This document shows positions 20 through 60,036 of a DNA stretch of 64,000 bases, one piece after another; positions within the stretch are counted from its first letter, which is position 1; each line of letters opens with the position of its first letter. The position numbers and the translations under genes are program-made. Source of the stretch: Halorubrum aquaticum (GTDB lineage Archaea > Halobacteriota > Halobacteria > Halobacteriales > Haloferacaceae); NCBI RefSeq assembly GCF_900113615.1, contig NZ_FOPZ01000018.1:1-64000 (forward strand). The letters run 5' to 3'. The notes beneath the pieces were generated by a model. It made no database searches, had not been told where the DNA came from, and saw only the letters and a list, made by a program, of their open reading frames with translations.

Positions 20-430
20 CGGCGCGCCCGGGAGCGGGCCGCCGGCCCGCGACCGGAACGCGAGGGAGTCAGTCGCCAGAGGCGACTGACGAGGCTGGGG
101 AGGCGTGAGGTGCGGGGCGGAGCGGTGCTGTGCGGGAAGGGTGGGACTCAAAGGGGCAGTCGTGAGGCCGAAGCACGGCGACGTAAGGACCGCAAGGAGT
201 GAGCGGAGCGAACGACTGAGGACCGTGGTTCGAGAGAGCAAAGCTCTCTCGTCATCGCCAGAAATCTCTGATTTCTGGCTAGCAGTCAGAACGCGTCGCG
301 TTCTGACGACATCACGAAAGGCGCGGAGCGCCTTTCGAACGACAGCAAGCCGCGCGAGTCCTCACGACTGGGGATTTGGCGGTGTTCATCGCGCCAGCAA
401 CGACGTACAGCCGAGCGACTGGGGCTTTGG
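20..430 (+). repeat. Structured intergenic repeat, copy A (with hairpin array)
   Basis: This non-coding stretch is the longest copy of an element that recurs at 5.0, 7.5, 42.7 and 59.9 kb. Reading on the plus strand it has a GGCGCGCC start box (21-28), a perfect hairpin at 34-50 (7-bp stem), a perfect hairpin at 68-90 (10-bp stem, loop AGA), the invariant box CTGGGGAGGCGTGAGGTG at 95-112, the box GGACTCAAAGGGGCAG at 144-159, four more perfect hairpins at 231-337, and end boxes around 352-404 (ACTGGGGATTTGG and GCGCCAGCAACGAC). A second half end box lies at 413-430. Open frames through it are shadows: the conserved units are hairpins rather than codons. No promoter is visible in the window; the upstream neighbour lies outside it. 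Function unknown. Confidence 0.85.
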
Positions 431-5037: not shown

Positions 5038-5345
5038 GTCATTGCTGGCGCGGTGACCATTCCCAAAGCCCCAGCCGCGAGGACTCGGGGGCCTCGTTGT
5101 GCTCCTCGATCGTTCGCTTCGCTCACTCGCTGCGGTGCGTACTTCGCCCGCCGTCGCCCTCGCGACAGCGAGGCGCTCCGCGCCTCTGGCAGCCGGCGGC
5201 GAAGCCGCCGGCGACTGCCCCTTTGAGTCCCACCCCGCACGGCACCGTAACCGCACCTCACGCCTCCCCAGCCTCGCTGCTCACTTCGTTCGCAGCGTCC
5301 CTCGCGTGCTCCTCGTGCCCCGGAGGGGCACTCGGAGGCGCGCCA
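5038..5345 (-). repeat. Structured intergenic repeat, copy B
   Basis: Minus-strand copy of the element seen at the window start. Reading 5' to 3' on the minus strand: GGCGCGCC box at about 5345-5336, hairpin GTGCCCC/GGGGCAC at 5315-5331, hairpin with CGCTGC/GCAGCG arms at 5275-5297, the invariant box (complement of 5254-5271), the box GGACTCAAAGGGGCAG (5230-5215), perfect hairpins at 5192-5212 (9-bp stem) and 5170-5186 (7-bp stem), then end boxes at 5085-5062 and 5058-5038. It fills the convergent gap between tRNA-Lys and the thermosome gene and has the same direction as the latter. The rest of the gap 4850-5613 holds no gene that I can support. Confidence 0.85.
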
Positions 5346-7417: not shown

Positions 7418-7518
7418 AACGACTGATCGAGGAGTCTCCGGGATCGGAACCGAGGAGATCGGCGGACGGGAACCCTACCACACGGTGGCGTCGTCGGCGC
7501 GGTGCGCCGGCTTCAAGC

Positions 7519-7604
7519 GAGGCCGGGGAGTTACGAGGTGCGGGGCTGTGCGGTCGAGATGGGACGCAAAGAGCTTCGGACGCGTTCACCGCGCCGGCAA
7601 CGAC
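7519..7604 (+). repeat. Structured intergenic repeat, degenerate copy E
   Basis: A decayed plus-strand copy. Recognisable parts are CGGGGAGTTACGAGGTGCGG (degenerate central box, about 7525-7544), GGGACGCAAAGAGC at 7561-7574 (compare GGGACTCAAAGGGGC) and the end box GCGTTCACCGCGCCGGCAAC at 7582-7601. The variable hairpins are lost. It lies between the thermosome promoter and the 3' end of the KH-protein gene, and downstream of the orphan TATA box. Confidence 0.65.
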
Positions 7605-7689
7605 GCATGGGCAGGCGACTGAACTCCGGAGAGACCGCCCGGAAGGACGTCGATCGCGTGGAAAGAACGATTCCGCTCCCGAAGCGCGC

Positions 7690-42607: not shown

Positions 42608-42640
42608 ATCTATTCAAGCCAGCTGAAGACACGATTACGG

Positions 42641-42880
42641 GGAACACCGTCAAAGCCCCAGCCGCGAGGGCTCGCGCACCTCGCTGCGCGCTTCAGTCGC
42701 TCGCGTTGCTCGCTCCCTCCAGTGCTTACGCCGGTGTACTTCGCCCTCGCGGCTGCCCCTTTGAGTCCCCCCACCGCGACCGCCCCGCACCTCACGCCTC
42801 CCCAGCCTCGCGGCTCCTTTCAGTCGCCGCGTCCCTCGCGGTCTCCTCGCGCCCTTCGGACGCTCGGAGGCGCGCCACCG
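42641..42880 (-). repeat. Structured intergenic repeat, copy C
   Basis: Minus-strand copy in the convergent gap between the small membrane-protein gene and the FBPase gene. On the minus strand: GGCGCGCC box (about 42876-42869), hairpin GCGTCC-GAA-GGGCGC (42863-42849, one G-T pair), hairpin with GCGGC/GCCGC arms (42809-42831), invariant box (complement of 42788-42805), GGACTCAAAGGGGCAG (complement of 42753-42768) and the end box GCGGCTGGGGCTTTG (about 42665-42651). The last end box seen in copies A, B and D is lost. It begins about 10 bp after a T-run that follows the FBPase stop. Confidence 0.85.
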
Positions 42881-59850: not shown

Positions 59851-60036
59851 GTCGTTGCTAGCGCGGGGCTCCTCGCCGAAGCCTCAGCCGCCCGGCCCAC
59901 GGGTGCCCCTTCGAATCCCGCTCGACCCGCAACCACACGGCCCCGCACCTCACGCCTCCCCAGCCTCGTCGCTCGCCGGAGGCGAGCGACTCCCTCGCGG
60001 TCCGGAAGCGCCCGTTCGGGCGCTTCCGGGCGCGCC
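59851..60036 (-). repeat. Structured intergenic repeat, copy D
   Basis: Minus-strand copy between nrdJ and the Gly/Met-rich gene, both ends convergent. On the minus strand: GGCGCGC box (60036-60030), a long perfect hairpin with 13-bp arms (60002-60029), a perfect 10-bp hairpin with loop TCC (59968-59990), the invariant box (complement of 59946-59963), a diverged GGGATTCGAAGGGGCA box (59919-59904), then shortened end boxes at 59891-59878 and 59866-59851. The third hairpin region is missing. It follows a TTTT run (60075-60078) after the upstream gene. No protein is encoded between 59725 and 60106. Confidence 0.85.

Follow-up and report, generated by a model that had tools for sequence, protein, structure and literature searches.

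Twin-hairpin units of haloarchaea: a nested pair of probable small mobile DNA elements in a palindromic repeat of Halorubrum aquaticum

Close to its start, the 64,000-nucleotide stretch of Halorubrum aquaticum DNA analyzed here (the window) carries four perfect hairpins in a row, each with a 3-nt loop. What are they, and how does such a series arise? The original prediction located all four correctly, with their stems and loops: H1 at 231–251 (9-bp stem CGAGAGAGC, loop AAA), H2 at 257–279 (10-bp stem GCCAGAAATC, loop TCT), H3 at 285–307 (10-bp stem GTCAGAACGC, loop GTC) and H4 at 315–337 (10-bp stem CGAAAGGCGC, loop GGA), all on the forward strand. The H4 loop is of the stable DNA triloop type C(GGA)G. 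Folded as single-stranded DNA, the stretch forms these four hairpins and no others, at -43.2 kcal/mol (z = -8.0), and none of 200 shuffles matched this fold. Perfect 3-nt-loop hairpins with a stem of at least 9 bp number 9 in the window, where a dinucleotide Markov simulation predicts 1.35 (20 runs, maximum 4), so four of them in 107 nt are not due to chance. A scan of the window and its sister loci with Rfam matched tRNA alone and nothing at the hairpins.

Two nested units in a scaffold repeat

The hairpins lie in copy A (60–420, forward strand) of a dispersed palindromic repeat of Halorubrum, which we call the scaffold. Copy A has 69 BLAST matches in its own genome, and a plasmid BLAST with the whole copy gave two short matches. 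By eye, the outer stem of the scaffold covaries between copies, for example CAGTCGCGAGG...CCTCGCGACTG. Five G-rich scaffold copies are found in the window, at 60–420, 5051–5340 (reverse strand), 7480–7620, 42640–42860 (reverse) and 59890–60000 (reverse), with the repeat pattern GAGGCTGGGGAGGCGTGAGGTGCGGGG...GGGACTCAAAGGGGCAG...CTGGGGCTTTGG; it is possible that this repeat is a structured or G-quadruplex element in its own right. The copy at 42640–42860 lacks the hairpin cassette, and comparison of scaffold copies places its empty site, GAAGCGCG^CAGCGAGG, at 42687/42686. The window starts at a contig end, and its positions 1–308 are identical to the end of another contig (C36:4737-5044). The assembly thus breaks at copy A, probably because C31 holds another four-hairpin copy that is 98% similar. 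The pyrG gene matches within Halorubrum at 91–97%.

Comparison with other copies resolved the block into two units of two hairpins each, element II lying inside element I. Element I (226–342, forward strand, model R1) has the form TGGTT{H1}TCATCA{H4}AACGA; it is 60 nt long, too short to code, and is interrupted by element II to a total of 117 nt. Sister scaffold copies with an empty site and a pair of TnpB right ends (L328 vs L333) define its borders. Element II (255–311, forward strand, R2 score 85.7 bits) has the form TC{H2}TAGCA{H3}GACA, measures exactly 57 nt and sits at TCA^TCA of element I; its borders come from an orthologous locus without it and from an equal 57-nt insert in a TnpB right end. 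The spacers of both elements are nearly invariant, while the stems vary on both arms. The termini of element I are inverted repeats (TSGTT...AACSA), those of element II weakly so. Across the set, single units measure 57–61 nt and the nested form 117–119 nt.

Scaffold copy B had been credited with two hairpins at the position corresponding to the array. These are present at 5170–5186 (7 bp) and 5192–5212 (9 bp), but they belong to another family and occupy a different site of the scaffold, directly after GGGGCAGTC of the surrounding repeat. Together they form element III (5166–5214, reverse strand), TC{GCCGGCGGC..}TGCCA{GAGGCGC..}GCTG, a 49-nt weak relative of element II (R2 match 5164–5216, E = 0.003). 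Scaffold copies with and without element III exist in the same genome, and one copy on another contig (L005 on C19) carries both hairpin kinds, each at its own site of the repeat. Hairpin number therefore does vary between copies, as had been proposed, but the varying unit is a pair of hairpins and not a single one.

Insertion sites and changes of hairpin number

Among 228 distinct element I copies, 197 measure 56–68 nt, 29 measure 115–119 nt and two measure 176 nt, with no intermediates; these size classes correspond to two, four and six hairpins. Nearly all interrupted copies examined contain an element II type unit or an altered second hairpin. Orthologous Halorubrum loci switch between 2, 4 and 6 hairpins with fixed borders, and seven pairs of such loci differ in hairpin number, 2 vs 6 included. 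In the orthologue of the window's own locus in another genome (G011), the scaffold is present and the hairpins are missing. The comparison of strains proposed in the original prediction thus yields whole-unit differences at fixed borders rather than mere point drift, and the idea that hairpin cassettes were gained by insertion is strongly supported by the empty and filled sites together with these orthologous states.

Both elements also occur in the right ends of TnpB transposons. Two such ends in one genome (G099) differ at an identical site: the empty end (L331) reads GCCCCA^CCCTC (...AAAGCCCCACCCTCAAGG) and has 56 nt, while the filled end (L332) reads GCCCCA[TC{hp}TAGCA{hp}GACA]CCCTCAAGG and has 113 nt, a difference of 57 nt, the length of element II. 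The sequence of the empty TnpB right end is GCCCCACCCTC. Four proteins encoded upstream of such ends were tested (L143, L157, L159 and L162), and all are TnpB by Pfam. Insertion of element II follows CA, and a 2-bp CA duplication is possible. Element I occupies the hairpin loop of another TnpB right end; the filled site at GTAG^CGCC is exactly 58 nt longer than the empty one (L328 vs L333), with no target duplication. Right ends without an element II unit are far commoner than ends with one. A plasmid record of Halobacterium sp. DL1 has element II within a feature annotated as 'transposase IS605'. Pairing between the two flanks of element I exceeds that of shuffled flanks (p = 2e-7, in a set from which all but a few copies with the Halorubrum scaffold motif had been filtered); element I therefore tends to sit near the tips of larger palindromes.

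Several single loci were noted alongside. At L440:1077-1137, a tnpB reading frame is split by a unit of element II type of about 58 nt; both halves are otherwise readable, so this insertion is probably young. Further unrelated twin hairpins lie in TnpB-type right-end loops at L329:2143-2254 ({CGCGGAAC..}GACCATTCGA{GCGGGCC..}) and, on the reverse strand, at L330:1340-1443 ({TCGGAAATC..}GCC{CTCAAACTC..}), which suggests additional twin-hairpin families. Another twin hairpin, {TCAGAACGC..}TGTGCG{AACGAGAGC..}, lies at L340:1990-2060 in the left-end region of a TnpA/TnpB element.

We conclude that the array very probably consists of two small non-autonomous mobile DNA elements, one nested in the other, inside a larger dispersed palindromic repeat. 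The exact borders, the empty and filled sites and the orthologous 2/4/6 states establish insertion of the units at the level of sequence comparison.

The strongest alternative, with appreciable weight though we consider it rather doubtful, is that no transposition takes place at present, and that gene conversion among dispersed copies in these polyploid archaea copies the 2-, 4- and 6-hairpin versions together with their stems and loops. One pair of orthologous Halorubrum loci (L121/L149) is instructive. Their flanks are near-identical, and between them an exact 57-nt unit differs, the tip of the H1 stem is replaced on both arms, and the H4 loop is inverted (GAA vs TTC). These three changes fall within one stretch of about 110 nt, as a single conversion tract would give. 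A small repertoire of stems also recurs in both slots, and element II lies within element I at a single site and in a single orientation in 31 of 31 cases, as would be expected from gene conversion or from composite spread of one old insertion. Gene conversion needs homology, however, and cannot place a 57-nt unit in TnpB right ends, in the tnpB frame of L440 or in other unrelated contexts. It may supplement insertion but not replace it, and as a second process it likely accounts for the concerted change of stem, loop and cassette in L121/L149.

Could the units instead be ends of IS605 transposons, fused after loss of the core? This origin, as terminal-only remnants of the PATE type, appears unlikely for elements I and II. 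IS605 elements of Haloquadratum do reduce to 52-bp terminal-only forms (PMC3119063), and our elements lie close to IS605 ends. Against this, complete TnpB ends exist without the unit, which argues against identity with PATEs, and no transposase with half-elements on both sides was seen in the loci examined.

Hairpin structure at the DNA level

Our results showed that the stems change in an almost strictly paired manner. In 151 copies we counted 2757 Watson-Crick pairs, 7 G-T pairs and 35 other mismatches, with the six outer pairs of each copy fixed by the search pattern; none of 500 shuffles gave covariation as strong. The loops are equally biased. GNA or its complement TNC forms 212 of 290 element I loops (73%) and 44 of 78 element II loops, against 614 of 5834 (about 10%) in background short hairpins, and a C-G pair closes the loop in 281 of 302 element I and 75 of 80 element II hairpins. 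Both loop orientations are found in a fixed frame, as expected from hairpin inversion. There is a strand bias at H1, where GAA outnumbers TTC by 52 to 15, while H4 loops lack such a preference (27 to 35).

C(GNA)G is an extraordinarily stable DNA mini-hairpin loop, for example d(GCGAAGC) (cited in PMC4686876). In element I, too, the majority of loops are GAA, GGA or their complements with a C-G closing pair. This loop is known as a chemical property; here it occurs in a mobile repeat family, a link for which we found no precedent in the literature searched. The near-pure Watson-Crick covariation and the DNA-type stable triloops argue that the structure is conserved as DNA rather than RNA.

A structured RNA, either a sponge, as suggested in the original prediction, or a scaffold resembling omega-RNA, is accordingly disfavored, and we regard hairpins selected as RNA as very unlikely. 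The strong covariation would suit such an RNA. At TnpB 3' ends, element II falls within the stretch from which omega-RNA is transcribed, and omega-RNAs that include a right-end hairpin have been described in haloarchaea (PMC12558985). Yet base changes are almost all Watson-Crick, and the loops match C(GNA)G, a DNA triloop, or its complement. In helices selected as RNA, G-U pairs are expected above other mismatches, and the count of 7 against 35 is the opposite. Rfam gave no match, and the rarity of filled TnpB right ends also argues against the unit as a conserved omega-RNA (TnpB guide RNA) scaffold, which every right end would need. Least probable of all are serial binding sites for a DNA-binding regulator or nucleoid protein, since despite the perfect palindromes and short regular spacing the stem sequences differ within and between copies with pairing kept, and hairpin number changes by whole 57-nt units, in many contexts inside transposons. 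If a protein binds here, it is more likely a mobilizing enzyme that recognizes DNA hairpins.

Distribution, known counterparts and possible mobilization

According to covariance models, element I has matches in 217 of 242 haloarchaeal genomes (69 of 74 genera) and element II in 204 of 242 (72 of 74 genera), a limited number of candidates having been scored per genome, and unrelated twin hairpins may be among the weak matches (E near 1e-4). Strong matches (E < 1e-18) extend across many families. The genome collection, scanned by pattern, gave at least 80 matches; among the matches listed, 80 of 80 are haloarchaeal, Haloquadratum included, where element I is present at two loci (L215, L235). Element I occurs in 29 plasmid records, and those with displayed names are from haloarchaea. 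Viral contigs and a phage collection gave no element match.

The closest known parallels are the SMR-A repeats of Haloquadratum walsbyi (HqIRS42, HqIRS43 and HqIRS55), which are about 110 bp long, cause no target duplication and are enigmatic in their mobilization; their targets are palindromes near the ends of IS605-type transposons, of PATEs and of related palindromic elements (PMC3119063). Judged by this description, our units are likewise tiny and non-coding, with terminal inverted repeats (weak in element II), lack of target duplication for element I, and insertion into near-terminal IS605-type palindromes. SMR-A was described from one species, whereas the twin hairpins of 57–61 nt are class-wide, their nested form (117–119 nt) being close to SMR-A in length, and they add the exchange of stems, inverted loops and stable DNA triloops.

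In build, the units resemble bacterial REP/BIME/REPIN elements, which are moved by RAYT (PMC3116915, PMC3733652). They share two hairpins in inverted orientation (GTGGTT{hp}TCATCA{hp}AACGAC), compensatory stem changes, and an intergenic, clustered occurrence; the outer-foot tag is GTSG-TT here and GTAG/GTGG in REP. The archaeal units differ in their perfect stems with 3-nt loops and in their insertion at palindrome tips and into each other. A RAYT (Y1) gene flanked by the repeats is a feature of REPINs, and no such partner was found here. PATEs and IS200/IS605 ends (PMC3119063) have in common with the units the near-terminal palindromes, the lack of target duplication and the genomic neighborhood, but our elements are insertions in such ends and not the ends themselves, and empty ends are usual. 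A MITE was rejected, element I having no target duplication and a parent transposon not being found in the loci examined. By these analogies, the units are best read as non-autonomous small mobile repeats that behave like SMR-A and are built like REPINs.

How might such units move? Element I inserts at G^C without target duplication, and element II after CA, both into element I and into IS605/TnpB transposon ends. They may move in single-stranded hairpin form, perhaps at replication forks, with an enzyme that recognizes the hairpin feet doing the cutting and joining. The leading candidate is an IS200/IS605-like Y1 enzyme acting in trans, a hypothesis that we hold tentatively and by analogy: the precise borders, the lack of element I duplication, the hairpin feet and the insertion into IS605 ends resemble IS200/IS605 and REPINs. 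Where several copies are present, gene conversion and hairpin flipping would exchange stems, turn loops around and carry the four-hairpin form from locus to locus.

Y1 transposase as an obligate partner is not supported. Several element I-rich genomes have no Y1 transposase at all (for example G043, G055 and G019), the elements do not regularly flank the Y1 genes that were checked, and the single Y1 gene of the H. aquaticum genome has no element adjoining. No autonomous element with element I halves on both sides of a transposase was found in the loci examined. A Y1 gene between element II and a related hairpin at L440 was rejected as the owner; L440 is an IS605 element with its tnpB frame broken by element II and with the hairpin at its left end.

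As a tentative picture, class-wide twin-hairpin units of haloarchaea could, as folded single strands, enter other DNA palindromes at their tips, TnpB guide-RNA ends and each other among these targets, and could flip or exchange whole hairpins in place, by means of a not-yet-known enzyme. Movement of hairpin into hairpin is little described, and the literature searched held no account of twin-hairpin units spread across the class, of the way they nest, or of stem exchange, loop flipping or triloop bias in them. Element I, with about 60 nt, invariant linkers and free stems, is present in most haloarchaeal genera sampled, so the mechanism can be tested directly from its borders, its targets and the states of orthologous loci. 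The finding bears on two unsolved questions, how SMRs move in Haloquadratum and how perfect palindromes persist and multiply. For the haloarchaea themselves, insertion into TnpB right ends may change or silence the guide RNAs of TnpB nucleases.
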